Origin: Gordius sp. MW1
Lineage: Eukaryota > Nematomorpha > Gordioida > Gordea > Gordiidae
Reading direction: 5' to 3'
Assembly: GCA_964036665.1 (NCBI GenBank)
Contig: OZ038526.1
Span: forward strand, 13,950,001 to 14,014,000
Length of the DNA: 64,000 nt
The notes below the pieces were generated by a model that was not told the DNA's origin, ran no database searches, and saw nothing but the letters and a program-made list of their open reading frames with translations. A program made the translations under genes and the position numbers. Shown here one piece after another: positions 1 through 46,282 of the stretch; positions within the stretch are counted from its first letter, which is position 1; every line of letters begins with the position of its first letter.

Positions 1-1726
1 CGGAAGTCAATCGAGGATAATAGGATTCTCAAATTGGCTTACTTTTATATATTTTTTCATGCTCTTTCACATAGAATCGAAAAAAATAAATATTTTTACC
101 TCAAAATTTTTCACATATTTTTCTTTGAACCGTATTCATCCGATGAAAGTTGTCGTTTTCAGACGTGGTTTCTATGATCCCAAGTAAAAATTTATCAGAA
201 TCTAAAAACTATTACTTTGAAATCATGATCGCATAGAGCAGTTTTCAAAAATTAAGCAATCACGTTGCGATAACAAACTAATCGCCACAATAAAACGTTG
301 TCTTTTGTCAAAATGATAGTTCTCGCAGCTTAAAACCTCTTTTCGGAAGTCAATCAAGGATAATAGGATTCTCAAATTGGCTTACTTTTATATATTTTTT
401 CATGCTCTTTCACATAGAATCGAAAAAAATAAATATTTTTACCTCAAAATTTTTCACATATTTTTTTTTGAACCGTATTCATCCGATGAAAGTTGTCGTT
501 TTAAGACGTGGTTTCTATGATCCCAAGTAAAAATTTATCAGAATCTAAAAACTATTACTTTGAAATCATGATCGCATAGAGCAGTTTTCAAAAATTAAGC
601 ACTCACGTTGCGATACAACAAACTAATCGCAACAATAAAACATTGTCTTTTGTCAAAATGATAGTTCTCGCAGCTTAAAACCTCTTTTCGGAAGTCAGTC
701 GAGGATAATAGGATTCTCAAATTGGCTTACTTTTATATATTTTTTCATGCTCTTTCACATAGAATCGAAAAAAATAAATATTTTTACCTCAAAATTTTTC
801 ACATATTTTTCTTTGAACCGTATTCATCCGATGAAAGTTGTCGTTTTCAGACGTGGTTTCTATGATCCCAAGTAAAAATTTATCAGAATCTAAAAACTAT
901 TACTTTGAAATCATGATCGCATAGAGCAGTTTTCAAAAATTAAGCACTCACGTTGCGATACAACAAACTAATCGCAACAATAAAACGTTGTCTTTTGTCA
1001 AAATGATAGTTCTCGCAGCTTAAAACCTCTCTTCGGAAGTCAATCGAGTATAATAGGATTCTCAAATTGGCTTACTTTTATATATTTTTTTATGCTCTTT
1101 CACATAGAATCGAAAAAAAATAAATATTTTTACCTCAAAACTTTTCACATATTTTTTTTTACAACCGTATTCATCCGATGAAAGTTGTCGTTTTCAGACG
1201 TGGTTTCTATGATCCCAAGTAAAAATTTACCAGAATTTAAAAACTATTACTTTGAAATCATGATCGCATAGAGCAGTTTTCAAAAATTAAGCACTCACGT
1301 TGCGATACAACAAACTAATTGCAACAATAAAACGTTGTCTTTTGTCAAAATGATAGTTCTCGCAGCTTAAAACCTCTTTTCGGAAGTCAATCGAGGATAA
1401 TAGGATTCTCAAATTAGCTTACTTTTATATATTTTTTCATGCTCTTTCACATAGAATCGAAAAAAATAAATATTTTACCTCAAAATTTTTCACATATTTT
1501 TCTTTGAACCGTATTCATCCGATGAAAGTTGTCGTTTTCAGACGTGGTTTCTATGATCCCAAGTAAAAATTTATCAGAATCTAAAAACTATTACTTTGAA
1601 ATCATGATCGCATAGAGCATTTTTCAAAAATTAAGCACTCACGTTGCGATACAACAAACTAATCGCAACAATAAAACGTTGTCTTTTGTCAAAATGATAG
1701 TTCTCGCAGCTTAAAACCTCTTTTCG
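1..1726 (-). repeat. Satellite family I array, five tandem copies of 343-347 bp
   Basis: Five head-to-tail copies begin with cggaagtcaatc or a close variant at positions 1, 344, 689, 1034 and 1381, giving periods of 343, 345, 345, 347 and about 344 bp. Copies differ by scattered substitutions and one- or two-base indels, for example a 'taca' versus 'taa' difference near 290 and 615. The array probably continues upstream of the window. The minus strand is given because the reverse complement aligns with family II as read on the plus strand: both have gctctatgcgatc followed by a tga-ttt-aaag segment, then aactttcat, then gaaaaattttgaggt in the same order and spacing. No open frame of note is present. 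Confidence 0.96.
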
Positions 1727-4719
1727 GCACCTCTTATATCGAAACATTTCATGGGGGCGATCTATTGTTTTTGTGAAACAAGCTCTATGCGATCGTGATT
1801 TAAAGTTAATAATTTTTGATGACTGATCAAAATTTTTTTTTTACGGAATTCACCTCTGATATCGAAAACTTTCATGGGGGCGATATGGTTGAACGAATAA
1901 ATTGAAAAAATTTTGAGGTCGAAAAAAATATTATTTTTCATATTCTTTCGAAAGGAATCTGAAAAAATCTTTAAAAGTCAGTAAATATTCTTAGCAATAT
2001 GTCCTTGTTAGAATCTCGATAAGAATTTTTGCACGAGGGGAAGTTTTAGATTGGGAGAAATTAAAATTTTAGAGTTGCGTTTAGATTGTTTCAATATCGC
2101 TTTCTAAGCGTGTCTCTAATTTTTGTGAAACAAGCTCTATGCTATCGTGATTTAAAGTTAATAATTTTTGATGACTGATCAAAAAATTTTTTTTTACGGA
2201 ATTCACCTCTGAAACTTTTATGGGGGCGATATGGTTGAACGAATAAATTGAAAAAATTTTGAGGTCGAAAAAAATATTATTTTTCATATTCTTTCGAAAG
2301 GAATCTGAAAAAATCTTTAAAAGTCAATAAATATTCTTAGCATTATGTCCTTGTTAGAATCTCGATAAGAATTTTTGCACGAGGCGAAGTTTTAGATTGA
2401 GAGAAATTAAGATTTTCGTTTTGCGTTTAGATTGTTTCAATATCGCTTTCTAATCGTGTCTCTAGTTTTTGTGAAACAAGCTCTATACGATCGTGATTTA
2501 AAGTTAATAATTTTTGATGACTGATCAAAATTTTTTTTTACGGAATTCACCTCTGACAAAAACTTTCATGGGGGCAATATGGTTGAACGAATAAATTGAA
2601 AAAATTTTAACGTCGAAAAAAATATTATTTTTCCTATTCTTTCGAAAGGAATCTGAAAAAATCTTTAAAAGTCAGTAAATATTCTTAGCATTATGTCCTT
2701 GTTAGTATCTCGATAAGAATTTTTGCACGAGGGGAAGTTTTAGATTGAGAGAAATTAAAATTTTAGAGTTGCGTTTAGATTGTTTCAATATCGCTTTCTA
2801 AGCGTGTCTCTAATTTTTGTGAAACAAGCTCTATGCTATCCTGATTTAAAGTTAATAATTTTTGATGACTGATCAAAAAAATTTTTTTTACGGAATTCAC
2901 CTCTGATATCGAAAACTTTCATGGGGGCGATATGGTTGAACGAATAAATTGAAAAAATTTTGAGGTCGAAAAAAATATTATTTTTCATATTCTTTCGAAA
3001 GGAATCTGAAAAAATCTTTAAAAGTCAGTAAATATTCTTAGCATTATGTCCTTGTTAGAATCTCGATAAGAATTTTTGCACAAGGGGAAGTTTTAGATAG
3101 AGGGAAATTACGATTTTCGAGTTGCGTTTAGATTGTTTCAATATCGCTTTCTAAGCGTGTCTCTAATTTTTGTGAAACAAGCTCTATGCGATCGTGACTT
3201 AAAGTTAATAATTTTTGGACTGATCAAATTTTTTTTTTAAACAAAATTCACCTCTTATATCGAAACCTTTCATGGGGGCGATATGGTTGAACGAATAAAT
3301 TGAAAAAATTTTGAGGTCGAAAAAAATAATATTTTTCATATTCTTTCGAAAGGAATTTGAAATCTTTAAAAGTCAGTAAATATTCTTAGCATTATGTCCT
3401 TGTTAGAATCTCGATAATAATTTTTGCACGAGGGGAAGTTTTAGATTGAGAGAAATTAAAATTTTAGAGTTGCGTTTAGATTGTTTCAATATCGCTTTCT
3501 AAGCGTGTCTCTAATTTTTGTGAAACAAGCTCTATGCGATCGTGATTTAAAGTTAATAATTTTTGATGACTGATCAAAATTTTTTTTTTTACAAAATTCA
3601 CCTCTTATATCGAAACCTTTCATGGGGGGGCGATCTATTGTTTTTGTAAAACAAGCTCTATGCGATCGTGATTTAAAGTTAATAATTTTTGATGACTGAT
3701 CAAAATTTTTTTTTAACGGAATTCACCTCTGATATCGAAACTTTCATGGGGGCGATATGGTTGAACGAATAAATTGAAAAAATTTTGAGGTCGAAAAAAA
3801 TATTATTTTTCATATTGTTTCGAAAGGAATCTGAAAAAATCTTTAAAAGTCAGTAAATATTCTTAGCATTATGTCCTTGTTAGAATCTCGATAAGAATTT
3901 TTGCACGAGGGGAAGTTTTAGATTGAGGGAAATTACGATTTTCGAGTTGCGTTTAGATTGTTTCAATATCGCTTTCTAAGCGTGTCTCTAATTTATGTGA
4001 AACAAGCTCTATGCTATCGTGATATAAAGTTAATAATTTTTAATGACTGATCAAAAAAATTTTTTTACGGAATTCACCTCTGATATCGAAAACTTTCATG
4101 GGGGCGATATGGTTGAACGAATAAATTGAAAAAATTTTGAGGTCGAAAAAAATATTATTTTTCATATTCTTTCGAAAGGAATCTGAAAAAATCTTTAAAA
4201 GTCAGTAAATATTCTTAGCATTAAGTCCTTGTTAGAATCTCGATAAGAATTTTTGCACGAGGGGAAGTTTTAGATTGAGAGAAATTAAAATTTTAGAGTT
4301 GCGTTTAGATTGTTTCAATATCGCTTTCTAAGCGTGTCTCTAATTTTTGTGAAACAAGCTCTATGCTATCGTGATTTAAAGTTAATAATTTTTGATGACT
4401 GATCAAAAAAATTTTTTGTACGGAATTCACCTCTGATATCGAAAACTTTCATGGGGGCGATATGGTTGAACGAATAAATTGAAAAAATTTTTAGGTCGAA
4501 AAAAATATTAATTTTCAAATTCTTTCGAAAGGAATCTAAAAAAATCTTTAAAAGTCAATAAATATTCTTAGCGTTATGTCCTTGTTAGAATCTCGATAAG
4601 AATTTTTGCACGAGGCGAAGTTTTAGATTGAGAGAAATTAAGATTTTCGTGTTGCGTTTAGATTGTTTCAATATCGCTTTCTAAGCGTGTCTAGTTTTTG
4701 TGAAACAAGCTCTATGCGA

Positions 4720-7700
4720 TTGTGATTTAAAGTTAATAATTTTTGATGACTGATCAAAAAATTTTTTTTTACGGAATTCACCTCTGATATCGAAAACTTT
4801 CATGGGGGCGATATGGTTGAACGAATAAATTGAAAAAATTTTGAGGTCGAAAAAAATATTATTTTTCATATTCTTTCGAAAGGAATCTGAAAAAATCTTT
4901 AAAAGTCAGTAAATATTCTTAGCATTATGTCCTTGTTAGAATCTCGATAAGAATTTTTGCACGAGGGGAAGTTTTAGATTGAGAGAATTTAAAATTTTAG
5001 AGTTGCGTTTAGATTGTTTCAATATCGCTTTCTAAGCGGGTCTCTAATTTTTGTGAAACAAGCTCTATGCTATCGTGATTTAAAGTTAATAATTTTTGAT
5101 GACTGATCAAAAAAAATTTTTTTACGGAATTCACCTTTGATATCAAAAACTTTCATGGGGGCGATATGGTTGAACGAATAAATTGAAAAAATTTTGAGGT
5201 CGAAAAAAATATTATTTTTCATATTCTTTTGAAAGGAATCTGAAAAAATCTTTAAAAGTCAGTAAATATTCTTAGCATTAAGTCCTTGTTAGAATCTCGA
5301 TAAGAATTTTTGCACGAGGGGAAGTTTTAGATTGAGAGAAATTAAAATTTTAGAGTTGCGTTTAGATTGTTTCAATATCGCTTTCTAAGCGTGTCTCTAA
5401 TTTTTGTGCAACAAGCTCTATGCTATCGTAATTTAAAGTTAATAATTTTTAATGACTGATCAAAAAAAAATTTTTAACGGAATTCACCTCTGATAGCGAA
5501 AACTTTCATGGGGGCGATATGGTTGAACGAATAAATTGAAAAAATTTTGAGGTCGAAAAAAATATTATTTTTCATATTCTTTCGAAAGGAATCTGAAAAA
5601 ATCTTTAACAGTCAGTAAATATTCTTAGCATTATGTCCTTGTTAGAATCTCGATAAGAATTTTTGCACGAGGGGAAGTTTTACATTGAGGGAAATTACGA
5701 TTTTCGAGTTGCGTTTAGATTGTTTCAATATCGCTTTCTAAGCGTGTCTCTAATTTTTGTGAAACAAGCTCTATGCGATCGTGATTTAAAGTTAATAATT
5801 TTTGATGACTGATCAAAATTTTTTTTTTACAAAATTCACCTCTTATATCGAAACCTTTCATGGGGGCGATATGGTTGAACGAATAAATTGAAAAAATTTT
5901 GAGGTCGAAAAAAATATTATTTTTCATATTCTTTCGAAAGGAATCTAAAAAAATCTTTAAAAGTCAGTAAATATTCTTAGCATTAAGTCCTTGTTAGAAT
6001 CTCGATAAGAATTTTTGCACGAGGGGAAGTTTTAGATTGAGAGAAATTAAAATTTTAGAGTTGCGTTTAGATTGTTTCAATATCGCTTTCTAAGCGTGTC
6101 TCTAATTTTTGTGAAACAAGCTCTATGCTATCGTGATTTAAAGTTAATAATTTTTGATGACTGATCATAAAAATTTTTTGTACGGAATTCACCTCTGATA
6201 TCGAAAACTTTCATGGGGGCGATATGGTTGAACGAATAAATTGAAAAAATTTTTAGGTCGAAAAAAATATTAATTTTCAAATTCTTTCGAAAGGAATCTA
6301 AAAAAATCTTTAAAAGTCAATAAATATTCTTAGCGTTATGTCCTTGTTAGAATCTCGATAAGAATTTTTGCACGAGGCGAAGTTTTAGATTGAGAGAAAT
6401 TAAGATTTTCGTGTTGCGTTTAGATTGTTTCAATATCGCTTTCTAAGCGTGTCTAGTTTTTGTGAAACAAGCTCTATGCGATTGTGATTTAAAGTTAATA
6501 ATTTTTGATGACTGATCAAAAAAATTTTTTTTACGGAATTCACCTCTGATATCGAAAACTTTCATGGGGGCGATATGGTTGAACGAATAAATTGAAAAAA
6601 TTTTGAGGTCGAAAAAAATATTATTTTTCATATTCTTGCGAAAGGAATCTGAAAAAATCTTTAAAAGTCAGTAAATATTCTTAGCATTATGTCCTTGTTA
6701 GAATCTCGATAAGAATTTTTGCACGAGGGGAAGTTTTAGATTGAGAGAAATTAAAATTTTAGAGTTGCGTTTAGATTGTTTCAATATCGCTTTCTAAGCG
6801 GGTCTCTAATTTTTGTGAAACAAGCTCTATGCTATCGTGATTTAAAGTTAATAATTTTTGATGACTGATCAAAAAATTTTTTTTTACGGAATTCACCTGT
6901 GATATCGAAAACTTTCATGGGGGCGATATGGTTGAACGAATAAATTGAAAAAATTTTGAGGTCGAAAAAAATATTATTTTTCATATTCTTTTGAAAGGAA
7001 TCTGAAAAAATCTTTAAAAGTCAGTAAATATTCTTAGCATTAAGTCCTTGTTAGAATCTCGATAAGAATTTTTGCACGAGGGGAAGTTTTAGATTGAGAG
7101 AAATTAAAATTTTAGAGTTGCGTTTAGATTGTTTCAATATCGCTTTCTAAGCGTGTCTCTAATTTTTGTGAAACAAGCTCTATGCTATCGTGATTTAAAG
7201 TTAATAATTTTTAATGACTGATCAAAAAAATTTTTTTTACGGAATTCACCTCTGATATCGAAAACTTTCATGGGGGCGATATGGTTGAACGAATAAATTG
7301 AAAAAATTTTGAGGTCGAAAAAAATATTATTTTTCATATTCTTGCGAAAGGAATCTGAAAAAATCTTTAAAAGTCAGTAAATATTCTTAGCATTATGTCC
7401 TTGTTAGAATCTCGATAAGAATTTTTGCACGAGGGGAAGTTTTAGATTGAGAGAAATTAAAATTTTAGAGTTGCGTTTAGATTGTTTCAATATCGCTTTC
7501 TAAGCGGGTCTCTAATTTTTGTGAAACAAGCTCTATGCTATCGTGATTTAAAGTTAATAATTTTTGATGACTGATCAAAAAAAAATTTTTAACGGAATTC
7601 ACCTCTGATAGCGAAAACTTTCATGGGGGCGATATGGTTGAACGAATAAATTGAAAAAATTTTGAGGTCGAAAAAAATATTATTTTTCATATTCTTTCGA

Positions 7701-10700
7701 AAGGAATCTGAAAAAATCTTTAACAGTCAGTAAATATTCTTAGCATTATGTCCTTGTTAGAATCTCGATAAGAATTTTTGCACGAGGGGAAGTTTTACAT
7801 TGAGGGAAATTACGATTTTCGAGTTGCGTTTAGATTGTTTCAATATCGCTTTCTAAGCGTGTCTCTAATTTTTGTGAAACAAGCTCTATGCGATCGTGAT
7901 TTAAAGTTAATAATTTTTGATGACTGATCAAAATTTTTTTTTTACAAAATTCACCTCTTATATCGAAACCTTTCATGGGGGCGATATGGTTGAACGAATA
8001 AATTGAAAAAATTTTGAGGTCGAAAAAAATATTATTTTTCATATTCTTTCGAAAGGAATCTAAAAAAATCTTTAAAAGTCAGTAAATATTCTTAGCATTA
8101 AGTCCTTGTTAGAATCTCGATAAGAATTTTTGCACGAGGGGAAGTTTTAGATTGAGAGAAATTAAAATTTTAGAGTTGCGTTTAGATTGTTTCAATATCG
8201 CTTTCTAAGCGTGTCTCTAATTTTTGTGAAACAAGCTCTATGCTATCGTGATTTAAAGTTAATAATTTTTGATGACTGATCATAAAAATTTTTTGTACGG
8301 AATTCACCTCTGATATCGAAAACTTTCATGGGGGCGATATGGTTGAACGAATAAATTGAAAAAATTTTTAGGTCGAAAAAAATATTAATTTTCAAATTCT
8401 TTCGAAAGGAATCTAAAAAAATCTTTAAAAGTCAATAAATATTCTTAGCGTTATGTCCTTGTTAGAATCTCGATAAGAATTTTTGCACGAGGCGAAGTTT
8501 TAGATTGAGAGAAATTAAGATTTTCGAGTTGCGTTTAGATTGTTTCAATATCGCTTTCTAAGCGTGTCTCTAATTTTTGTGAAACAAGCTCTATGCGATC
8601 GTGATTTAAAGTTAATAATTTTTGATGACTGATCAAAATTTTTTTTTTACAAAATTCACCTCTTATATCGAAACCTTTCATGGGGGCGATATGGTTGAAC
8701 GAATAAATTGAAAAAATTTTGAGGTCGAAAAAAATATTATTTTTCATATTCTTTCGAAAGGAATCTAAAAAAATCTTTAAAAGTCAGTAAATATTCTTAG
8801 CATTAAGTCCTTGTTAGAATCTCGATAAGAATTTTTGCACGAGGGGAAGTTTTAGATTGAGAGAAATTAAAATTTTAGAGTTGCGTTTAGATTGTTTCAA
8901 TATCGCTTTCTAAGCGTGTCTCTAATTTTTGTGAAACAAGCTCTATGCTATCGTGATTTAAAGTTAATAATTTTTGATGACTGATCATAAAAATTTTTTG
9001 TACGGAATTCACCTCTGATATCGAAAACTTTCATGGGGGCGATATGGTTGAACGAATAAATTGAAAAAATTTTTAGGTCGAAAAAAATATTAATTTTCAA
9101 ATTCTTTCGAAAGGAATCTAAAAAAATCTTTAAAAGTCAATAAATATTCTTAGCGTTATGTCCTTGTTAGAATCTCGATAAGAATTTTTGCACGAGGCGA
9201 AGTTTTAGATTGAGAGAAATTAAGATTTTCGTGTTGCGTTTAGATTGTTTCAATATCGCTTTCTAAGCGTGTCTAGTTTTTGTGAAACAAGCTCTATGCG
9301 ATTGTGATTTAAAGTTAATAATTTTTGATGACTGATCAAAAAAATTTTTTTTACGGAATTCACCTCTGATATCGAAAACTTTCATGGGGGCGATATGGTT
9401 GAACGAATAAATTGAAAAAATTTTGAGGTCGAAAAAAATATTATTTTTCATATTCTTGCGAAAGGAATCTGAAAAAATCTTTAAAAGTCAGTAAATATTC
9501 TTAGCATTATGTCCTTGTTAGAATCTCGATAAGAATTTTTGCACGAGGGGAAGTTTTAGATTGAGAGAAATTAAAATTTTAGAGTTGCGTTTAGATTGTT
9601 TCAATATCGCTTTCTAAGCGGGTCTCTAATTTTTGTGAAACAAGCTCTATGCTATCGTGATTTAAAGTTAATAATTTTTGATGACTGATCAAAAAATTTT
9701 TTTTTACGGAATTCACCTGTGATATCGAAAACTTTCATGGGGGCGATATGGTTGAACGAATAAATTGAAAAAATTTTGAGGTCGAAAAAAATATTATTTT
9801 TCATATTCTTTTGAAAGGAATCTGAAAAAATCTTTAAAAGTCAGTAAATATTCTTAGCATTAAGTCCTTGTTAGAATCTCGATAAGAATTTTTGCACGAG
9901 GGGAAGTTTTAGATTGAGAGAAATTAAAATTTTAGAGTTGCGTTTAGATTGTTTCAATATCGCTTTCTAAGCGTGTCTCTAATTTTTGTGAAACAAGCTC
10001 TATGCTATCGTGATTTAAAGTTAATAATTTTTAATGACTGATCAAAAAAAAGTTTTTTACGGAATTCACCTCTGATATCGAAAACTTTCATGGGGGCGAT
10101 ATGGTTGAACGAATAAATTGAAAAAATTTTGAGGTCGAAAAAAATATTATTTTTCATATTCTTTCGAAAGGAATCTGAAAAAATCTTTAACAGTCAGTAA
10201 ATATTCTTAGCATTATGTCCTTGTTAGAATCTCGATAAGAATTTTTGCACGAGGGGAAGTTTTACATTGAGGGAAATTACGATTTTCGAGTTGCGTTTAG
10301 ATTGTTTCAATATCGCTTTCTAAGCGTGTCTCTAATTTTTGTGAAACAAGCTCTATGCTATCGTGATTTAAAGTTAATAATTTTTAATGACTGATCAAAA
10401 AAAAGTTTTTTACGGAATTCACCTCTGATATCGAAAACTTTCATGGGGGCGATATGGTTGAACGAATAAATTGAAAAAATTTTGAGGTCGAAAAAAATAT
10501 TAATTTTCATATTCTTTCGAAAGGAATCTAAAAAAATCTTTAAAAGTCAATAAATATTCTTAGCGTTAAGTCCTTGTTAGAATCTCGATAAGAATTTTTG
10601 CACGAGGGGAAGTTTTAGATTGAGAGAAATTAAGATTTTCGTGTTGCGTTTAGATTGTTTCAATATCGCTTTCTAAGCGTGTCTCTAGTTTTTGTGAAAC

Positions 10701-10890
10701 AGCTCTATGCGATTGTGATTTAAAGTTAATAATTTTTGATGACTGATCAAAAAAATTTTTTTTACGGAATTCACCTCTGATATCGAAAACCTTCATGGAT
10801 ATGGTTAAACGAATAAATTGAAAAAATTTTGAGGTCGAAAAAAATATTATTTTTCATATTCTTTCGAAAGGAATCTGAAAAAATCTTTAA
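4720..10890 (+). repeat. Higher-order block, left copy (about 6.17 kb)
   Basis: This part of the array is copied on the other side of the 3.3 kb insert at about 14714-18064. Positions about 4720-7210 match about 14714-17204 at an offset of 9,994, and about 8520-10890 match 15694-18064 at an offset of 7,174. The difference between the offsets is 2,820 bp, eight monomers. Diagnostic shared variants include the rare gagagaattt near 4985 and 14979, tttgatatcaaaaac near 5139 and 15133, and the short aaccttcatggatatgg form near 10788 and 17962. Edges are estimated from where diagnostic variants stop matching. Confidence 0.85.
5700..8519 (+). repeat. 2,820 bp eight-monomer unit, duplicated in block a
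   Basis: The stretch about 5700-7230 recurs at about 8520-10050 with an offset of 2,820 bp (eight monomers of 352.5 bp). Shared variants include acaaaattcacctc at 5829 and 8649, the gatcataaaaatttttt form near 6165 and 8985, and the gtgtctagtttttg deletion near 6449 and 9269. The matching block to the right of the 3.3 kb insert has only one such unit. Part of the set (acaaaattc monomer plus the gatcataaaaa monomer) appears a third time near 7830-8400, so the unit is itself internally repetitive. Confidence 0.85.
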
Positions 10891-11086
10891 AAGTCAATAA
10901 ATATTCTTAGCATTATGTCCTTGTTAGAATCTCGATAAGAATTTTTGCACAAGGGGAAGTTTTAGATTGGGAGAAATTAAAATTTTAGAGTTGCGTTTAG
11001 ATAGTTTCAATATCGCTTTCTAAGCGTGTCTCTAATTTTTGTGAAACAAGCTCTATGCGATCGTGATTTAAAGTTAATAATTTTAA

Positions 11087-11106: not shown

Positions 11107-11116
11107 TCGTTTTTTG

Positions 11117-11150: not shown

Positions 11151-11187
11151 ACCCTCCCTATCTATTTGCATTGGGTATATTAATCGC

Positions 11188-14361: not shown

Positions 14362-14365
14362 ACGA

Positions 14366-14378: not shown

Positions 14379-14713
14379 GAGTATTTGATGACTGATCAAA
14401 ATTTTTTTTTTTACAAAATTCACCTCTTATATCGAAACCTTTCATGGGGGCGATATATTTGAACGAATAAATTGGAAAAATTTGGGGTCGAAAAAAATAT
14501 TATTTTTCATATTCTTTCGAAAGGAATCTGAAAAAATCTTTAAAAGTCAGTAAATATTCTTAGCATTATGTCCTTGTTAGAATCTCGATAAGAATTTTTG
14601 CACGAGGGGAAGTTTTAGATTGGGAGAAATTAAAATTTTAGAGTTGCGCTTAGATTGTTTCAATATCGCTTTCTAAGCGTGTCTCTAATTTTTGTGAAAC
14701 AAGCTCTATGCTA

Positions 14714-17700
14714 TTGTGATTTAAAGTTAATAATTTTTGATGACTGATCAAAAAAATTTTTTTTACGGAATTCACCTCTGATATCGAAAACTTTCATGGG
14801 GGCGATATGGTTGAACGAATAAATTGAAAAAATTTTGAGGTCGAAAAAAATATTATTTTTCATATTCTTTCGAAAGGAATCTGAAAAAATCTTTAAAAGT
14901 CAGTAAATATTCTTAGCATTATGTCCTTGTTAGAATCTCGATAAGAATTTTTGCACGAGGGGAAGTTTTAGATTGAGAGAATTTAAAATTTTAGAGTTGC
15001 GTTTAGATTGTTTCAATATCGCTTTCTAAGCGGGTCTCTAATTTTTGTGAAACAAGCTCTATGCTATCGTGATTTAAAGTTAATAATTTTTGATGACTGA
15101 TCAAAAAAAATTTTTTTACGGAATTCACCTTTGATATCAAAAACTTTCATGGGGGCGATATGGTTGAACGAATAAATTGAAAAAATTTTGAGGTCGAAAA
15201 AAATATTATTTTTCATATTCTTTTGAAAGGAATCTGAAAAAATCTTTAAAAGTCAGTAAATATTCTTAGCATTAAGTCCTTGTTAGAATCTCGATAAGAA
15301 TTTTTGCACGAGGGGAAGTTTTAGATTGAGAGAAATTAAAATTTTAGAGTTGCGTTTAGATTGTTTCAATATCGCTTTCTAAGCGTGTCTCTAATTTTTG
15401 TGCAACAAGCTCTATGCTATCGTAATTTAAAGTTAATAATTTTTAATGACTGATCAAAAAAAAATTTTTAACGGAATTCACCTCTGATAGCGAAAACTTT
15501 CATGGGGGCGATATGGTTGAACGAATAAATTGAAAAAATTTTGAGGTCGAAAAAAATATTATTTTTCATATTCTTTCGAAAGGAATCTGAAAAAATCTTT
15601 AACAGTCAGTAAATATTCTTAGCATTATGTCCTTGTTAGAATCTCGATAAGAATTTTTGCACGAGGGGAAGTTTTACATTGAGGGAAATTACGATTTTCG
15701 AGTTGCGTTTAGATTGTTTCAATATCGCTTTCTAAGCGTGTCTCTAATTTTTGTGAAACAAGCTCTATGCGATCGTGATTTAAAGTTAATAATTTTTGAT
15801 GACTGATCAAAATTTTTTTTTTACAAAATTCACCTCTTATATCGAAACCTTTCATGGGGGCGATATGGTTGAACGAATAAATTGAAAAAATTTTGAGGTC
15901 GAAAAAAATATTATTTTTCATATTCTTTCGAAAGGAATCTAAAAAAATCTTTAAAAGTCAGTAAATATTCTTAGCATTAAGTCCTTGTTAGAATCTCGAT
16001 AAGAATTTTTGCACGAGGGGAAGTTTTAGATTGAGAGAAATTAAAATTTTAGAGTTGCGTTTAGATTGTTTCAATATCGCTTTCTAAGCGTGTCTCTAAT
16101 TTTTGTGAAACAAGCTCTATGCTATCGTGATTTAAAGTTAATAATTTTTGATGACTGATCATAAAAATTTTTTGTACGGAATTCACCTCTGATATCGAAA
16201 ACTTTCATGGGGGCGATATGGTTGAACGAATAAATTGAAAAAATTTTTAGGTCGAAAAAAATATTAATTTTCAAATTCTTTCGAAAGGAATCTAAAAAAA
16301 TCTTTAAAAGTCAATAAATATTCTTAGCGTTATGTCCTTGTTAGAATCTCGATAAGAATTTTTGCACGAGGCGAAGTTTTAGATTGAGAGAAATTAAGAT
16401 TTTCGTGTTGCGTTTAGATTGTTTCAATATCGCTTTCTAAGCGTGTCTAGTTTTTGTGAAACAAGCTCTATGCGATTGTGATTTAAAGTTAATAATTTTT
16501 GATGACTGATCAAAAAGATTTTTTTTACGGAATTCACCTCTGATATCGAAAACTTTCATGGGGGCGATATGGTTGAACGAATAAATTGAAAAAATTTTGA
16601 GGTCGAAAAAAATATTATTTTTCATATTCTTGCGAAAGGAATCTGAAAAAATCTTTAAAAGTCAGTAAATATTCTTAGCATTATGTCCTTGTTAGAATCT
16701 CGATAAGAATTTTTGCACGAGGGGAAGTTTTAGATTGAGAGAAATTAAAATTTTAGAGTTGCGTTTAGATTGTTTCAATATCGCTTTCTAAGCGGGTCTC
16801 TAATTTTTGTGAAACAAGCTCTATGCTATCGTGATTTAAAGTTAATAATTTTTGATGACTGATCAAAAAATTTTTTTTTACGGAATTCACCTGTGATATC
16901 GAAAACTTTCATGGGGGCGATATGGTTGAACGAATAAATTGAAAAAATTTTGAGGTCGAAAAAAATATTATTTTTCATATTCTTTTGAAAGGAATCTGAA
17001 AAAATCTTTAAAAGTCAGTAAATATTCTTAGCATTAAGTCCTTGTTAGAATCTCGATAAGAATTTTTGCACGAGGGGAAGTTTTAGATTGAGAGAAATTA
17101 AAATTTTAGAGTTGCGTTTAGATTGTTTCAATATCGCTTTCTAAGCGTGTCTCTAATTTTTGTGAAACAAGCTCTATGCTATCGTGATTTAAAGTTAATA
17201 ATTTTTAATGACTGATCAAAAAAAAGTTTTTTACGGAATTCACCTCTGATATCGAAAACTTTCATGGGGGCGATATGGTTGAACGAATAAATTGAAAAAA
17301 TTTTGAGGTCGAAAAAAATATTATTTTTCATATTCTTTCGAAAGGAATCTGAAAAAATCTTTAACAGTCAGTAAATATTCTTAGCATTATGTCCTTGTTA
17401 GAATCTCGATAAGAATTTTTGCACGAGGGGAAGTTTTACATTGAGGGAAATTACGATTTTCGAGTTGCGTTTAGATTGTTTCAATATCGCTTTCTAAGCG
17501 TGTCTCTAATTTTTGTGAAACAAGCTCTATGCTATCGTGATTTAAAGTTAATAATTTTTAATGACTGATCAAAAAAAAGTTTTTTACGGAATTCACCTCT
17601 GATATCGAAAACTTTCATGGGGGCGATATGGTTGAACGAATAAATTGAAAAAATTTTGAGGTCGAAAAAAATATTAATTTTCATATTCTTTCGAAAGGAA

Positions 17701-18064
17701 TCTAAAAAAATCTTTAAAAGTCAATAAATATTCTTAGCGTTAAGTCCTTGTTAGAATCTCGATAAGAATTTTTGCACGAGGGGAAGTTTTAGATTGAGAG
17801 AAATTAAGATTTTCGTGTTGCGTTTAGATTGTTTCAATATCGCTTTCTAAGCGTGTCTCTAGTTTTTGTGAAACAGCTCTATGCGATTGTGATTTAAAGT
17901 TAATAATTTTTGATGACTGATCAAAAAAATTTTTTTTACGGAATTCACCTCTGATATCGAAAACCTTCATGGATATGGTTAAACGAATAAATTGAAAAAA
18001 TTTTGAGGTCGAAAAAAATATTATTTTTCATATTCTTTCGAAAGGAATCTGAAAAAATCTTTAA
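14714..18064 (+). repeat. Higher-order block, right copy (about 3.35 kb)
   Basis: This is the counterpart of about 4720-10890, with one 2,820 bp eight-monomer unit fewer. Its first half matches at offset 9,994 and its second half at 7,174. Individual differences include aaaaagatttttttt near 16514 versus aaaaaaatttttttt near 9338. Confidence 0.85.
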
Positions 18065-19734
18065 AAGTCAGTAAATATTCTTAGCATTATGTCCTTGTTA
18101 GAATCTCGATAAGAATTTTTGCACGAGGGGAAGTTTTAGATTGGGAGAAATTAAAATTTTAGAGTTGCGCTTAGATTGTTTCAATATCGCTTTCTAAGCG
18201 TGTCTCTAATTTTTGTGAAACAAGCTCTATGCTATTGTGATTTAAAGTTAATAATTTTTGATGACTGATCAAAAAAATTTTTTTTACGGAATTCACCTCT
18301 GATATCGAAAACTTTCATGGGGGCGATATGGTTGAACGAATAAATTGAAAAAATTTTGAGGTCGAAAAAAATATTATTTTTCATATTCTTTCGAAAGGAA
18401 TCTGAAAAAATCTTTAAAAGTCAGTAAATATTCTTAGCATTATGTCCTTGTTAGAATCTCGATAAGAATTTTTGCACGAGGGGAAGTTTTAGATTGAGGG
18501 AAATTACGATTTTCGAGTTGCGTTTAGATTGTTTCAATATCGCTTTCTAAGCGTGTCTCTAATTTTTGTGAAACAAGCTCTATGCGATCGTGACTTAAAG
18601 TTAATAATTTTTGATGACTGATCAAAATTTTTTTTTTTACAAAATTCACCTTTTATATCGAAACCTTTCATGGGGGCCATATGGTTGAACGAATAAATTA
18701 CAAAAATTTGGGGTCGAAAAAAATATTATTTTTCATATTCTTTCGAAAGGAATCTGAAAAAATCTTTAAAAGTCAGTAAATATTCTTAGCAATATGTCCT
18801 TGTTAGAATCTCGATAAGAATTTTTGCACGAGGGGAAGTTTTAGATTGGGAGAAATTAAAATTTTAGAGTTGCGCTTAGATTGTTTCAATATCGCTTTCT
18901 AAGCGTGTCTCTAATTTTTGTGAAACAAGCTCTATGCTATCGTGATTTAAAGTTAATAATTTTTGATGACTGATAAATTTTTTTTACGGAATTCACCTCT
19001 GATATCGAAAACTTTCATGGGGGCGATATGGTTGAACGAATAAATTGAAAAAATTTTGAGGTCGAAAAAAATATTATTTTTCATATTCTTTCGAAAGGAA
19101 TCTGAAAAAATCTTTAAAAGTCAGTAAATATTCTTAGCATTATGTCCTTGTTAGAATCTCGATAAGAATTTTTGCACGAGGGGAAGTTTTAGATTGAGGG
19201 AAATTACGATTTTCGAGTTGCGTTTAGATTGTTTCAATATCGCTTTCTAAGCGTATCTCTAATTTTTGTGAAACAAGCTCTATGCGATCGTGACTTAAAG
19301 TTAATAATTTTTGATGACTGATCAAAAATTTTTTTTTACAAAATTCACCTCTTATATCGAAACCTTTCATGGGGGCGATATGGTTGAACGAATAAATTGA
19401 AAAAATTTTGAGGTCGAAAAAAATATTATTTTTCATATTCTTTCGAAAGGAATCTGAAAAAATCTTTAAAAGTCAGTAAATATTCTTAGCATTATGTCCT
19501 TGTTAGAATCTCGATAATAATTTTTGCACGAGGGGAAGTTTTAGATTGAGAGAAATTAAAATTTTAGAGTTGCGTTTAGATTGTTTCAATATCGCTTTCT
19601 AAGCGTGTCTCTATTTTTTGTGAAACAAGCTCTATGCGATCGTGATTTAAAGTTAATAATTTTTGATGACTGATCAAATTTTTTTTTTTTACAAAATTCA
19701 CCTCTTATATCGAAACCTTTCATGGGGGCGATCT

Positions 19735-20938
19735 ATTGTTTTTGTGAAACAAGCTCTATGCGATCGTGATTTAAAGTTAATAATTTTTGATGACTGATCA
19801 AAATTATTTTTTAACGGAATTCACCTCTGATATCGAAACTTTCATGAGGGCGATATGGTTGAACGAATAAATTGAAAAAATTTTGAGGTCGAAAAAAATA
19901 TTATTTTTCATATTCTTTCGAAAGAAATCTGAAAAAATCTTTAAAAGTCAGTAAATATTCTTAGCAATATGTCCTTATTAGAATCTCGATAAGAATTTTT
20001 GCACGAGGGGAAGTTTTAGATTGGGAGAAATTAAAATTTTAGAGTTGCGTTTAGATTGTTTCAATATCGCTTTCTAAGCGTGTCTCTAGTTTTTGTGAAA
20101 CAAGCTCTATGCTATCGTGATTTAAAGTTAATAATTTTTGATGACTGATCAAAATTTTTTTTTTTACAAAATTCACCTCTTATATCGAAACCTTTCATGG
20201 GGGCGGGGCGATCTATTGTTTTTGTGAAACAAGCTCTATGCGATCGTGATTTAAAGTTAATAATTTTTGATGACTGATCAAAAATTTTTTTTTTACAAAA
20301 TTCACCTCTTATATCGAAACCTTTCATGGGGGCGATCTATTGTTTTTGTGAAACAAGCTCTATGCGATCGTGATTTAAAGTTAATAATTTTTGATGACTG
20401 ATCAAAATTTTTTTTTAACGGAATTCACCTCTGATATCGAAACTTTCATGGGGGCGATATGGTTGAACGAATAAATTGAAAAAATTTTGAGGTCGAAAAA
20501 AATATTATTTTTCATATTCTTTCGAAAGAAATCTGAAAAAATCTTTAAAAGTCAGTAAATATTCTTAGCAATATGTCCTTGTTAGAATCTCGATAAGAAT
20601 TTTTGCACGAGGGGAAGTTTTAGATTGGGAGAAATTAAAATTTTAGAGTTGCGTTTAGATTGTTTCAATATCGCTTTCTAAGCGTGTCTCTAATTTTTGT
20701 GAAACAAGCTCTATGCTATCGTGATTTAAAGTTAATAATTTTTGATGACTGATCAAAATTTTTTTTTTTACAAAATTCACCTCTTATATCGAAACCTTTC
20801 ATGGGGGCGATCTATTGTTTTTGTGAAACAAGCTCTATGCGATCGTGATTTAAAGTTAATAATTTTTGATGACTGATCAAAATTTTTTTTTTACGGAATT
20901 CACCTCTGATATCGAAAATTTTCATGGGGGCGATATGG
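19735..20938 (+). repeat. About 604 bp compound unit, two copies
   Basis: Each unit combines a full-length monomer with short 124-129 bp forms. The rare gaaagaaatctg variant recurs at 19920 and 20524 and the gcaatatgtcctt variant at 19964 and 20568, both at an offset of 604. The first unit ends in two consecutive short forms; one has a 5 bp duplication (gggggcggggcgatc) near 20200, making it 129 bp. Confidence 0.8.
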
Positions 20939-23900
20939 TTGAACGAATATATTGAAAAAATTTTGAGGTCGAAAAAAATATTATTTTTCATATTCTTTCG
21001 AAAGGAATCTGAAAAAATCTTTAAAAGTCAGTAAATATTCTTATCATTATGTCCTTGTTAGAATCTCGATAAGAATTTTTGCACGAGGGGAAGTTTTAGA
21101 TTGAGAGAAATTAAAATTTTAGAGTTGCGTTTAGATTGTTTCAATATCGCTTTCTAAGCGGGTCTCTAATTTTTGTGAAACAAGCTCTATGCTATCGTGA
21201 TTTAAAGTTAATAATTTTTGATGACTGATCAAAAAAAATTTTTTTACGGAATTCACCTCTGATATCGAAAACTTTCATGGGGGCGATATGGTTGAACGAA
21301 TAAATTGAAAAAATTTTGAGGTCGAAAAAAATATTATTTTTCATATTCTTTTGAAAGGAATTTGAAAAAATCTTTAAAAGTCAGTAAATATTCTTAGCAT
21401 TAAGTCCTTGTTAGAATCTCGATAAGAATTTTTGCACGAGGGGAAGTTTTAGATTGAGAGAAATTAAAATTTTAAAGTTGCGTTTAGATTGTTTCAATAT
21501 CGCTTTCTAAGCGTGTCTCTAATTTTTGTGAAACAAGCTCTATGCTATCGTGATTTAAAGTTAATAATTTTTAGATCAAAAAAAATTTTTTTACGGAATT
21601 CACCTCTGATATCGAAAACTTTCATGGGGGCGATATGGTTGAACGAATAAATTGAAAAAATTTTGAGGTCGAAAAAAATATTATTTTTCATATTCTTTCG
21701 AAAGGAATCTGAAAAAATCTTTAAAAGTCAGTAAATATTCTTAGCATTACGTCCTTGTTAGAATCTCGATAAGAATTTTTGCACGAGGGGAAGTTTTAGA
21801 TTGAGGGAAATTACGATTTTCGAGTTGCGTTTAGATTGTTTCAATATCGCTTTCTATGAAACAAGCTCTATGCGATCGTGATTTAAAGTTAATAATTTTT
21901 GATGACTGATCAAAAAAACTTTTTTTACGGAATTCACCTCTGATATCGAAAACTTTCATGGGGGCGATATGGTTGAACGAATAAATTGAAAAAACTTTGA
22001 GGTCGAAAAAAATATTATTTTTCATATTCTTTCGAAAGGAATCTGATAAAATCTTTAAAAGTCAGTAAATATTCTTAGCATTATGTCCTTGTTAGAATCT
22101 CGATAAGAATTTTTGCACGAGGGGAAGTTTTACATTGAGGGAAATTACGATTTTCGAGTTGCGTTTAGATTGTTTCAATATCGCTTTCTAAGCGTGTCTC
22201 TAATTTTTGTGAAACAAGCTCTATGCGATCGTGATTTAAAGTTAATAATTTTTGATGACTGATCAAATTTTTTTTTTTTACAAAATTCACCTCTTATATC
22301 GAAACCTTTCATGGGGGCGATATGGTTGAACGAATAAATTGAAAAAATTTTGAGGTCGAAAAAAATATTATTTTTCATATTCTTTCGAAAGGAATCTGAA
22401 AAAATCTTTAAAAGTCAGTAAATATTCTTAGCATTATGTCCTTGTTAGAATCTCGATAAGAATTTTTGCACGAGGGGAAGTTTTAGATTGAGGGAAATTA
22501 AGATTTTCGAGTTGCGTTTAGATTGTTTCAATATCGCTTTCTAAGCGTGTCTCTAGTTTTTGTGAAACAAGCTTTATGCGATCGTGATTTAAAGTTAATA
22601 ATTTTTGATGACTGATCAAAATTTTTTTTTTTACAAAATTCACCTCTTATATCGAAACCTTTCATGGGGGCGATATGGTTGAACGAATAAATTGAAAAAA
22701 CTTTGAGGTCGAAAAAAATATTATTTTTCATATTCTTTCGAAAGGAATCTGAAAAAATCTTTAAAAGTCAGTAAATATTCTTAGCATTATGTCCTTGTTA
22801 GAATCTCGATAAGAATTTTTACACAAGGGGAAGTTTTAGATTGAGAGATAAAATTTTAGAGTTGCGTTTAGATTGTTTCAATATCGCTTTCTAAGCGTGT
22901 CTCTAGTTTTTGTGAAACAAGCTCTTTGCGATCGTGATTTAAAGATAATAATTTTTGATGACTGATCAAAATTTTTTTTTTTTACAAAATTCACCTCTTA
23001 TATCGAAACCTTTCATGGGGGCGATATGGTTGAACGAATAAATTGAAAAAATTTTGAGGTCGAAAAAAATATTATTTTTCAAATTCTTTCGAAAGGAATC
23101 TAAAAAAATCTTTAAAAGTCAATAAATATTCTTAGCATTATGTCCTTGTTAGAATCTCGATAAGAATTTTTGTACGAGGCGAAGTTTTAGATTGAGAGAA
23201 ATTAAGATTTTCGTGTTGCGTTTAGATTGTTTCAATATCGCTTTCTAAGCGTGTCTCTAGTTTTTGTGAAACAAGCTCTATGCGATCGTGATTTAAAGTT
23301 AATAATTATTGATGACTGATCAAAAAATTTTTTTTTACGGAATTCACCTCTGATATCGAAAACTTTCATGGGGGCGATATTGTTGAACGAATAAATTGAA
23401 AAAATTTTGAGGTCGAAAAAAATATTATTTTTCATATTCTTTCGAAAGGAATCTGAAAAAATCTTTAAAAGTCAGTAAATATTCTTAGCATTATGTCCTT
23501 GTTAGAATCTCGATAAGAATTTTTACACATGGGGAAGTTTTAGATTGAGAGATAAAATTTTAGAGTTGCGTTTAGATTGTTTCAATATCGCTTTCTAAGC
23601 GTGTCTCTTGTTTTTGTCAAACAAGCTTTATGCGATCGTGATTTAAAGTTAATAATTTTTGATGACTGATCAAACAATTTTTTTTTACAAAATTCACCTC
23701 TAATATCGAAACCTTTCATGGGGGCGATATGGTTGAACGAATAAATTGAAAAAACTTTGAGGTCGAAAAAAATATTATTTTTCATATTCTTTCGAAAGGA
23801 ATTTGAAAAAATCTTTAAAAGTCAGTAAATATTCTTAGCATTATGTCCTTGTTAGAATCTCGATAAGAATTTTTACACATGGGGAAGTTTTAGATTGAGA

Positions 23901-24625
23901 GATAAAATTTTAGAGTTGCGTTTAGATTGTTTCAATATCGCTTTCTAAGCGTGTCTCTAATTTTTGTGAAACAAGCTCTATGCGATCGTGATTTTACAAA
24001 ATTAACCTCTTATATCGAAACCTTTCATGGGGGCGATATGGTTGAACGAATAAATTGAAAAAATTTTGAGGTCGAAAAAAATATTATTTTTCAAATTCTT
24101 TCGAAATGAATCTAAAAAAATCTTTAAAAGTCAATAAATATTCTTAGCATTATGTCCTTGTTAGAATCTCGATAAGAATTTTTGCACGAGGCGAAGTTTT
24201 AGATTGAGAGAAATTAAGATTTTCGTGTTGCGTTTAGATTGTTTCAATATCGCTTTCTAAGAGTGTCTCTAGTGTGAAACAAGCTCTATGCGATCGTGAT
24301 TTAAAGTTAATAATTTTTGATGACTGATCAAAAAAATTTTTTTACGGAATTCACCTCTGATATCGAAAACTTTCACGGGGGCGATATGGTTGAACGAATA
24401 AATTGAAAAAATTTTGAGGTCGAAAAAAATATTATTTTTCACATTCTTTCGAAAGGAATCTGAAAAAATCTTTAAAAGTCAGTAAATATTCTTAGCATTA
24501 TGTCCTTGTTAGAATCTCGATAAGAATTTTTGCACGAGGGGAAGTTTTAGATTGAGAGAAATTAAAATTTTAGAGTTGCGTTTAGATTGTTTCAATATCG
24601 CTTTCTAAGCGTGTCTCTAATTTTT

Positions 24626-24749
24626 GTAAAACAAGCTCTATGCGATCGTGATTTAAAGTTAATAATTTTTGATGACTGATCAAAATTTTTTTTTTTACAA
24701 AATTCACCTCTTATATCGAAACCTTTCATGGGGGCGATCTATTGTTTTT
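24626..24749 (+). repeat. Representative 124 bp short-form monomer
   Basis: The monomer runs from the gtgaaacaag landmark (here gtaaaacaag) to cgatctattgtttttgtg, and lacks about 229 bp of the full 353 bp unit. The deletion joins tttcatgggggcgat to ctattg. The same junction recurs near 1768, 3634, 19730, 20211, 20337, 20814, 25908, 28128, 28598, 29418, 30578, 32462 and 34455, at the equivalent places in unit B (36616-46333), and near 48890, 53868, 55736, 56916 and 60166. Confidence 0.9.
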
Positions 24750-25249
24750 GTGAAACAAGCTCTATGCGATCGTGATTTAAAGTTAATAATTTTTGATGAC
24801 TGATCAAAATTTTTTTTTTACGGAATTCACCTCTGATATCGAAAACTTTCATGGGGGCGATATGGTTGAACGAATAAATTGAAAAAATTTTGAGGTCGAA
24901 AAAAATATTATTTTTCATATTCTTTCGAAAGGAATCTGAAAAAATCTTTAAAAGTCAGTAAATATTCTTAGCAATATGTCCTTGTTAGAATCTCGATAAG
25001 AATTTTTGCACGAGGGGAAGTTTTAGATTGGGAGAAATTAAAATTTTAGAGTTGCGTTTAGATTGTTTCAATATCGCTTTCTAAGCGTGTCTCTAATTTT
25101 TGTGAAACAAGCTCTATGCTATCGTGATTTAAAGTTAATAATTTTTGATGACTGATCAAAAAAATTTTTTTTACGGATTCACCTCTGATATCGAAAACTT
25201 TCATGGGGGCGATATGGTTGAACGAATAAATTGAAAAACTTTAAGGTCG

Positions 25250-27010
25250 AAAAAAATATTATTTTTCATATTCTTTCGAAAGGAATCTGAAAAAATCTTT
25301 AAAAGTCAGTAAATATTCTTAGCATTATGTCCTTGTTAGAATCTCGATAAGAATTTTTACACAAGGGGAAGTTTTAGATTGAGAGATAAAATTTTAGAGT
25401 TGCGTTTAGATTGTTTTAATATCGCTTTCTAAGCGTGTCTCTAGTTTTTGTGAAACAAGCTTTATGCGATCGTGATTTAAAGTTAATAATTTTTGATGAC
25501 TGATCAAATTTTTTTTTTTACAAAATTCACCTCTTATATCGAAACCTTTCATGGAGCGATATGGTTGAACGAATAAATTGAAAAAACTTTGAGGTCGAAA
25601 AAAATATTATTTTTCATATTCTTTCGAAAGGAATCTGAAAAAATCTTTAAAAGTCAGTAAATATTCTTAGCATTATGTCCTTGTTAGAATCTCAATAAGA
25701 ATTTTTACACAAGGGGAGGTTTTAGATTGAGAGATAAAATTTTAGAGTTGCGTTTAGATTGTTTCAATATCGCTTTCTAAGCGTGTCTCTAGTTTTTGTG
25801 AAACAAGCTCTATGCGATCGTGATTTAAAGATAATAATTTTTGATGACTGATCAAAATTTTTTTTTTTACAAAATTCACCTCTTATATCGAAACCTTTCA
25901 TGGGGGCGATCTATTGCTTTTGTGAAACAAGCTCTATGCGATCGTGATTTAAAGTTAATAATTTTTGATGACTGATCAAATTTTTTTTTTACGGAATTCA
26001 CCTCTGATATCGAAAACTTTCATGGGGGCGATATGGTTGAACGAATAAATTGAAAAAACTTTGAGGTCGAAAAAAATATTATTTTTCATATTCTTTCGAA
26101 AGGAATCTGAAAAAATCTTTAAAAGTCAGTAAATATTCTTAGCATTATGTCCTTGTTAGAATCTCGATAAGGATTTTTACACGAGGCGAAGTTTTAGATT
26201 GAGAGAAATTAAAATTTTCGTGTTGCGTTTAGATTGTTTCAATATCGCTTTCTAAGCGTGTCTCTAATTTTTGTGAAACAAGCTCTATGCTATCGTGATT
26301 TAAAGTTAATAATTTTTGATGACTGATCAAAAAAATTTTTTTTACGGAATTCACCTCTGATATCGAAAACTTTCATGGGGGCGATATGGTTGAACGAATA
26401 AATTGAAAAAATTTTGAGGTCGAAAAAAGTATTATTTTTCATATTCTTTCGAAAGGAATCTGAAAAAATCTTTAAAAGTCAGTAAATATTCTTAGCATTA
26501 TGTCCTTGTTAGAATCTCGATAAGAATTTTTGCACGAGGGGAAGTTTTAGATTGAGGGAAATTACGATTTTCGAGTTGCGTTTAGATTGTTTCAATATCG
26601 CTTTCTATGAAACAAGCTCTATGCGATCGTGATTTAAAGTTAATAATTTTTGATGACTGATCAAAAAAACTTTTTTTACGGAATTCACCTCTGATATCGA
26701 AAACTTTCATGGGGGCGATATGGTTGAACGAATAAATTGAAAAAACTTTGAGGTCGAAAAAAATATTATTTTTCATATTCTTTCGAAAGGAATCTGATAA
26801 AATCTTTAAAAGTCAGTAAATATTCTTAGCATTATGTCCTTGTTAGAATCTCGATAAGAATTTTTGCACGAGGGGAAGTTTTACATTGAGGGAAATTACT
26901 ATTTTCGAGTTGCGTTTAGATTGTTTCAATATCGCTTTCTAAGCGTGTCTCTAATTTTTGTGAAACAAGCTCTATGCGATCGTGATTTAAAGTTAATAAT
27001 TTTTGATGAC
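25250..27010 (+). repeat. 1.76 kb block repeated 3,509 bp downstream (first copy)
   Basis: Matches about 28759-30519. Markers at this offset include attgttttaatatcgc (25412 and 28921), the shortened tttcatggagcgatatgg (about 25548 and 29057) and the tttctatgaaacaagctc deletion form (about 26603 and 30112). There are several substitutions, so it is older than the 11.9 kb duplication. It is copied again inside unit B. Confidence 0.82.
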
Positions 27011-28758
27011 TGATCAAATTTTTTTTTTTTACAAAATTCACCTCTTATATCGAAACCTTTCATGGGGGCGATATGGTTGAACGAATAAATTGAAAAAATT
27101 TTGAGGTCGAAAAAAATATTATTTTTCATATTCTTTCGAAAGGAATCTGAAAAAATCTTTAAAAGTCAGTAAATATTCTTAGCATTATGTCCTTGTTAGA
27201 ATCTCGATAAGAATTTTTACACAAGGGGAAGTTTTAGATTGAGAGATAAAATTTTAGAGTTGCGTTTAGATTGTTTCAATATCGCTTTCTAAGCGTGTCT
27301 CTAGTTTTTGTGAAACAAGCTCTATGCGATCGTGATTTAAAGATAATAATTTTTGATGACTGATCAAAATTTTTTTTTTTTACAAAATTCACCTCTTATA
27401 TCGAAACCTTTCATGGGGGCGATATGGTTGAACGAATAAATTGAAAAAATTTTGAGGTCAAAAAAAATATTATTTTTCAAATTCTTTCGAAAGGAATCTA
27501 AAAAAATCTTTAAAAGTCAATAAATATTCTTAGCATTATGTCCTTGTTAGAATCTCGATAAGAATTTTTGTACGAGGCGAAGTTTTAGATTGAGAGAAAT
27601 TAAGATTTTCGTGTTGCGTTTAGATTGTTTCAATATCGCTTTCTAGGCGTGTCTCTAGTTTTTGTGAAACAAGCTCTATGCGATCGTGATTTAAAGTTAA
27701 TAATTATTGATGACTGATCAAAAAAATTTTTTTTACGGAATTCACCTCTGATATCGAAAACTTTCATGGGGGCGATATGGTTGAACGAATAAATTGAAAA
27801 AATTTTGAGGTCGAAAAAAATATTATTTTTCATATTCTTTCGAAAGGAATCTGAAAAAATCTTTAAAAGTCAGTAAATATTCTTAGCATTATGTCCTTGT
27901 TAGAATCTCGATAAGTATTTTTGCACGAGGGGAAGTTTTAGATTGAGAGAAATTAAAATTTTAGAGTTGCGTTTAGATTGTTTCAATATCGCTTTCTAAG
28001 CGTGTCTCTAATTTTTGTGAAACAAGCTCTATGCGATCGTGATTTAAAGTTAATAATTTTTGATGACTGATCAAAAAATTTTTTTATACAAAATTCACCT
28101 CTTATATCGAAACCTTTCATGGGGGCGATCTATTGTTTTTGTGAAACAAGCTCTATGCGATCGTGATTTAAAGTTAATTTGATGACTGATCAAAAAATTT
28201 TTTTTTACGGAATTCACCTCTGATATCGAAAACTTTCATGGGGGCGATATGGTTGAACGAATAAATTGAAAAAATTTTGAGGTCGAAAAAAATAATTTTT
28301 CATATTCTTTCGAAAGGAATCTGAAAAAATCTTTAAAAGTCAGTAAATATTCTTAGCATTATGTCCTTTTTAGAATCTCGATAAGAATTTTTGCACGAGG
28401 GGAAGTTTTAGATTGAGAGAAATTAAAATTTTAGAGTTGCGTTTAGATTGTTTCAATATCGCTTTCTAAGCGTGTCTCTAATTTTTGTGAAACAAGCTCT
28501 ATGCGATCGTGATTTAAAGATAATAATTTTTGATGACTGATCAAAATTTTTTTTTTTACAAAATTCACCTCTTATATCGAAACCTTTCATGGGGGCGATC
28601 TATTGCTTTTGTGAAACAAGCTCTATGCGATCGTGATTTAAAGTTAATAATTTTTGATGACTGATCAATTTTTTTTTTTACGGAATTCACCTCTGATATC
28701 GAAAACTTTCATGGGGGCGATATGGTTGAACGAATAAATTGAAAAAACTTTGAGGTCG

Positions 28759-46278: not shown

Positions 46279-46282
46279 CAAT
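45791..46282 (-). pseudogene. RNase H-like domain fragment of a retroelement (copy B)
   Basis: The same fragment as at 33913-34404, with no difference seen in the translated frame, including the Asn at the expected first acidic position and the same stop. The frame again extends into satellite to 46324. No start codon or promoter belongs to the element itself. The identity reflects the recent duplication and is not evidence of selection on the protein. Confidence 0.7.

Follow-up and report, generated by a model that had tools for sequence, protein, structure and literature searches.

The closest described systems are pairs or sets of related satellites that change orientation around centromeres. 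In Tribolium madens, according to the parts of PMC13081366 on which we draw, TmSat1 and TmSat2 are a major and a minor satellite derived from one progenitor; intermingled, they occupy putative (peri)centromeric regions several megabases long on every chromosome. A 110-bp element builds their 225 and 704 bp repeats, and both satellites change orientation within arrays, an arrangement described as macro-dyad symmetry (PMC13081366, same parts). These macro-dyads extend from a few kb up to tens of kb (the longest are 75 and 26 kb), and thousands of copies share the same inversion sites and transition zones. The same parts of PMC13081366 describe two intermingled satellites with macro-dyads in T. 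castaneum and T. freemani as well, the major and the minor one there being unrelated in sequence. That source says that macro-dyads are documented in Tribolium only; in the satellite literature searched, the term was otherwise met solely in a paper on Edessa bugs, which cites the T. madens paper by title in its reference list, and other wording may be in use elsewhere. Primate alpha-satellite consists of related subfamilies in near-symmetric layers, with a 3.2 Mb inversion in one orangutan chromosome 20 centromere and one inversion in human centromere 1 (PMC9549924, PMC11062924). According to a figure legend in PMC9549924, no live human centromere other than centromere 1 holds an inversion.

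The window analysed here is the whole stretch of 64,000 nucleotides at C8:13,950,001-14,014,000, in a genome of 211.8 Mb and 12 contigs, of which eight are large (21-37 Mb each, 210.3 Mb in total). We consider it likely that its two satellites, families I and II, are sisters from one ancestral repeat that form (peri)centromeric blocks on eight chromosomes, where they have been homogenised and repeatedly strand-switched, with II mostly at switches of I. The window is laid out as follows.

1..1727, minus strand by homology to family II (the array itself is called plus): family I array, 5 monomers of ~345 bp
1725..1731, no strand: junction of families I and II, CTCTTTTCGG | CACCTCT (sequence read directly)
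1728..11084, plus strand: family II array, with most units 346-354 bp long
11085-14383: first insert in the family II array, 3.3 kb, with its own tandem blocks at 11188-11314, 11343-11579 and 11886-12293
14384..33581, plus strand: family II array, continued; short units of 118-130 bp occur among the full ones
22748..35884, plus strand: tandem duplication within the family II array, matching 34625-47764 at 99.4% over 13,146 columns with a shift of 11,877 (self-comparison)
33582-34402 and 45460-46280: insert present in two copies, with a 177-aa open frame on the minus strand
34403..45459, plus strand: family II array, continued
46281..64000, plus strand: family II array, continued up to the window end

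TRF reports family I at 1-1727 (period 345, 5.0 copies, 97% matches) and family II from 1768 onward (periods 348-353). Both are tandem arrays by this measure and by 10-kb samples that consist of up to 10,000/10,000 bases of family I and 9,986/10,000 of family II. Family I monomers start at 1, 344, 689, 1034 and 1381, and the array continues upstream of the window (C8:13.90-13.91 Mb is 10,000/10,000 bases of family I, plus strand). The initial annotation placed its feature at 1..1860; this range describes family I to about 1727, and the remainder, 1728-1860, is already family II. Direct reading of the junction at 1725..1731 revealed no foreign sequence between I and II, and the first family II piece, at 1728, resembles the tail of a short unit.

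The family I consensus (345 bp) was derived from 5 monomers and that of family II (353 bp) from 135 units of 340-356 bp; these were taken from 178 anchor spacings, with 24 short units (118-130 bp) kept apart and 19 others dropped. A monomer of ~350 bp corresponds to roughly two nucleosome repeats. The 24 short units in the window (e.g., 3519-3645 and 19619-19743) adjoin full units, for which reason TRF also gives 470-477 bp pairs, and they are apparently produced by internal deletion of the 353-bp unit.

Three foreign inserts interrupt the family II array of the window. The first appears to belong to a dispersed element, because the stretch at C3:8,000,001 opens with words nearly identical to those at window position 11585. 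With its GC-rich 3' end and its A/T target, it resembles a non-autonomous Helitron. Both copies of the other insert are carried by the 11.88-kb duplication, a recent event. The 177-aa frame looks like the RNase H terminus of a DIRS-like element; a Pfam search with it returned nothing at E <= 0.001 and two weak matches up to E 10. No RNA families at gathering score and no tRNAs were found within the window. Elsewhere on C8, non-satellite stretches of 0.6-2.9 kb occur in otherwise pure arrays at six loci (L009, L010, L012, L015, L017 and L026) and are probably mobile elements. Non-satellite stretches longer than 500 bp are present in 5/17 ten-kb samples of family I and 1/3 of family II on this contig.

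The initial annotation had read the two families as inverted, diverged relatives with a shared ancestor, to be checked against shuffled sequence. The reverse complement of family I does align to family II, with a local score of 105.0 and collinear round the whole circularised monomer; 1000 dinucleotide shuffles scored 20.7 ± 3.8 (maximum 35.5), and 0/1000 reached 105.0 (z 22). The ordered landmarks named there are present in the order given, and the monomer lengths are close (345 bp versus 353 bp in the consensuses). Among 675 single-monomer pairs (5 of family I by 135 of family II), the minimum for the reverse complement is 81.5 and the mean 97.1, compared with a forward maximum of 29.5. The consensus alignment has 222/342 identical columns, and identity between single monomers averages 62.6-62.8%. 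On the combined evidence of the whole-monomer alignment, the shuffle and genomic controls and the single-monomer identities, sequence comparison confirms the common ancestry of I and II, at ~63-65% identity.

Related satellites below about 80% identity, roughly 50-80% over the monomer, constitute a satellite superfamily. Families I and II have significant whole-monomer homology within this range (222/342 columns, z 22). It had also been expected that default annotation would treat them as unrelated; judged with BLAST programs, this is true of megablast and dc-megablast, which find no match, but blastn does align them (68% over 578 bp of the doubled consensus, E 1e-42).

Among the sampled monomers, I and II form discrete groups: 3796 I-II pairs have a mean identity of 0.627 and a maximum of 0.661, compared with at least 0.850 for I-I and at least 0.839 for II-II among 125 full-length monomers (II from C1, C2, C4, C6 and C8 only), a set filtered at >= 93% of a consensus, which may have hidden intermediate monomers. 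A tree of the monomers has a single I/II split with support 1.0. Columns common to I and II vary less inside each family (circular-shift P 0.003 and 0.005), in the same direction in 8/8 base-by-family strata, the effect being nearly nil for C in II. This fits constraint on parts of the monomer, and uneven mutation could also explain it.

Internal structure of the monomer was considered separately. A half-monomer duplication from a 170-bp ancestor was rejected: direct halves scored 14.5 and 18.5, where the best of 100 shuffles per family reached 27.5 and 21.5, and inverted halves 13.0 and 17.0 (shuffle maxima 20.5 and 24.5). One monomer per family was examined for single-strand folding and neither exceeded expectation (z -0.01 and -0.65); hence we make no monomer-level hairpin argument.

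Beyond the window, satellite was found in 124/145 placed samples, and both families were met on 8/8 large contigs. The 145 places are a sparse, non-random set, most of them near known matches; by batch, satellite was present in 20/20, 20/20, 10/20, 52/60, 10/13 and 12/12, with a sample of 26 satellite bases scored as a miss. An exact family I 27-mer occurs 12,994 times genome-wide (8991 forward and 4003 reverse) and an exact family II 32-mer 1,735 times (250 forward and 1485 reverse). Satellite samples span roughly 1 to 3.6 Mb per large contig, and all eight have a large block, with extents taken from sparse samples and family II on C7 represented by one 90-base sample. Given this size and presence on every large contig, the blocks of I and II together are most likely multi-megabase and (peri)centromeric. 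The block on C4, at 2-4 Mb of 24, counts against a centromeric location. A CENP-B-box-like motif is an optional criterion for a centromeric satellite; neither consensus matches its core pattern on either strand.

Six short sequence words from the satellites had no match in the 5.39 million papers searched; the satellite may be described elsewhere in another form. A 1.37-Mb contig opens (C9:1-800) with tandem words resembling GGACAACGGA, repeated irregularly. TTAGG 20-mers number only 12 in the genome, all in contig interiors (C3, C5 and C6), and TCAGG 20-mers are absent from it; the telomere repeat is either another sequence or absent from the assembly.

The sampled order and strand of the families on each large contig (positions in Mb) are as follows.

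C1, round the II block: I plus, II minus, II plus, I minus, with additional I switches ahead of the block
C2: I plus, I minus, II minus (with a short II plus stretch), II minus, I plus
C3: I minus on either side of II
C4: I minus, II minus, II plus, I plus, with one non-satellite sample at 2.69
C5: I plus, II minus, I minus at 500-kb spacing, then I plus
C6: I plus, II plus, II minus, I minus
C7: II plus, then I minus
C8: I plus 13.0-13.95, II plus (the window), II minus 14.03-14.42, II plus 14.43
C8, onward: I plus 14.44-14.48 (87-90%), I minus 14.5-15.53, I plus 15.55-16.6

Samples of family I come from both strands on 7/8 large contigs (C7 minus only, 4 samples), with 13 polarity switches on seven contigs as sampled. 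Family II is clearly on both strands on 5/8 (C1, C2, C4, C6 and C8), with one good family II sample each on C5 and C7, and C3 plus apart from a 17-bp minus call. As sampled, then, the blocks contain inverted subarrays, with II on both strands on 5/8 contigs and I in opposite orientations across II on 5/7. At this sampling, polarity blocks range from under 1 kb (C2) through tens of kb to over 1 Mb. Within the II minus stretch at 14.03-14.42 Mb on C8, one sample (14.40) is non-satellite. Diverged family I copies (87-90%) were seen at C8:14.44-14.48 Mb (L045, L128 and L129) and C1:11.24 Mb (L029); lying beside II or near a polarity switch, they are perhaps an old layer. No N bases were met across 154 loci. 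The window border and the C2 sites were read through, and most other switch points are spanned by sample spacing only; the map gives assembly polarity, and the switches could partly reflect scaffolding errors.

A family II block lies between oppositely oriented family I on 5/7 chromosomes (C1, C2, C4, C5 and C6), C7 being left unscored because its left side has no family I sample. C3 and C8 have no II at a switch of I, and on C8 family I flips 50-70 kb past the last II sample. Random placement of II along the sampled arrays would give 1.4/7 by length, compared with the 5/7 observed; for 5 or more, P is 0.0015 when scored by length and 0.0023 when scored by interval. The test is post hoc, the pattern having been spotted in the early samples before more were added, and C5 is scored on 500-kb spacing. 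Because of this, the coarse spacing and the likelihood of hidden switches, we treat the enrichment as a lead.

One explanation for this placement, which we regard as possible but the less probable choice, is that II forms the kinetochore (CENP-A) core and I the flanking pericentromere, with the symmetry of I marking the sides of the centromere; such an arrangement might be likened to enlarged Tribolium macro-dyads or to layered primate centromeres. It would accord with the position of II within I, at a polarity switch of I on 5/7 chromosomes, although no II was seen at 8/13 switches of I. It would also accord with chromosome specificity: identity of II is 0.953 between loci of the same chromosome and 0.915 between chromosomes, compared with 0.949 and 0.931 for I, so that II is the more chromosome-specific family. 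Human centromeres have a homogeneous, chromosome-specific core with older layers placed near-symmetrically on its two sides (PMC9549924, in part), but II is not clearly younger than I, as its same-locus identity is 0.955 versus 0.965. The three foreign inserts in the window's II array also argue against a core, since inserts (L1) are rare in live human arrays according to the same parts of PMC9549924; this argument is tempered by the non-satellite stretches in family I samples on C8 (5/17). Nor does either consensus contain a CENP-B-box-like motif. We are slightly more doubtful still that most of these centromeres are strand-symmetric over hundreds of kb to Mb, with opposed arms of I flanking a chromosome-specific core of the sister family II and breakpoints separate for each chromosome. 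If they were, such convergence without common breakpoints would imply that the favoured property of these centromeres is their strand symmetry and not their sequence.

The initial annotation explained the opposed strands in the window by inversion of one array after descent from a shared ancestor. In this explanation, an inverted part of the ancestral array diverged into the other family and the window border reflects that event. We consider it improbable. Families I and II are antiparallel in the window, at 4/5 of the borders placed to within 20 kb and at 7/10 of those placed to within 100 kb, but when all 14 sampled I/II borders are counted, 8 are as in the window (same nominal sign, antiparallel homology) and 6 are opposite. 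None of these proportions differs from an even split (P 0.79, 0.38 and 0.34 for the sets of 14, 5 and 10). The 36-bp window junction has one copy in the genome even with up to 3 mismatches allowed, and both families occur on both strands, although subsequent switching might have overwritten an earlier order. Inversion of one array is therefore not upheld as the event that defined the families, and the simplest account of the opposed strands in the window is a polarity switch like many others, which tells neither the course of the ancestral split nor its orientation. The orientation claim finds partial support: a fixed inversion between the families is not supported, and a weak antiparallel preference may exist. 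Early samples had pointed to one constant orientation of I relative to II, and later ones contradicted it.

Breakpoints were compared at three places. The genome has 4 copies of one family II inversion site from C2 and 2 of another, all of them in a stretch of about 21 kb on that contig. The three breakpoints tested (the window junction and the two C2 sites) are private, and those of C2 are amplified locally only.

A chance resemblance of two AT-rich repeats (A+T ~70% in both; G+C 0.307 and 0.292) is so improbable that it can be set aside, since the reverse-complement score lies at z 22 over dinucleotide shuffles, the forward strand gives a chance-level 24.5 (attained by 80/1000 shuffles), and 0/58 alignments of non-satellite 345-bp genomic pieces (both strands) to II exceed 29.5 (mean 17.7, maximum 29.5).

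The reading that we prefer is thus one of sister satellites. One ancestral tandem repeat would have given rise to families I and II as members of one superfamily, and together these would have built the multi-megabase blocks on all eight large chromosomes. Unequal exchange, gene conversion and segmental duplication, acting inside chromosomes and from one to another, would keep each family homogeneous, with II homogenised more inside single chromosomes. Local inversions or inverted duplications, each with its own breakpoints, would make arrays switch strand repeatedly, and the switches may then have spread through amplification, as on C2. If arrays switch strand locally, an I/II border may be parallel or antiparallel, and that of the window is antiparallel. 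Blocks of II inside I, mostly where I changes polarity, would produce the order I-II-II'-I' over hundreds of kb on several chromosomes. Such dyads may either help the centromere or merely accumulate in long arrays.

Two consequences are practical: a high-identity repeat comparison overlooks satellite relatives, and the relative strand at a single border tells little of the history of the families. If the polarity map holds on reads, this would be a further case of strand-symmetric centromeric satellites, larger than those reported in Tribolium, and strand symmetry would exist without conserved inversion sites among those tested. Selection for dyad symmetry, as opposed to a by-product of inversion in long arrays, then becomes testable.

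Compared with the systems described (in each case as given in the parts of the sources cited above), the pair resembles that of T. madens in being related, intermingled, putatively (peri)centromeric and switching in orientation. It differs in its monomers (345 and 353 bp, versus 225 and 704 bp) and in its blocks, which are often larger, up to over 1 Mb as sampled. The conserved inversion sites and transition zones of T. madens have no counterpart among the three breakpoints tested here, of which the window junction has 1 copy and the C2 sites have 4 and 2, all local. Like T. castaneum and T. freemani there are two intermingled satellites, but I and II are related. With primate alpha-satellite they share related families, near-symmetric layering and megabase inversions; unlike live human centromeres, with their one inversion, family I switches 13 times on seven contigs even at coarse sampling. 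As sister satellites, families I and II belong to a known kind; what is unusual is how they are arranged on the large scale.
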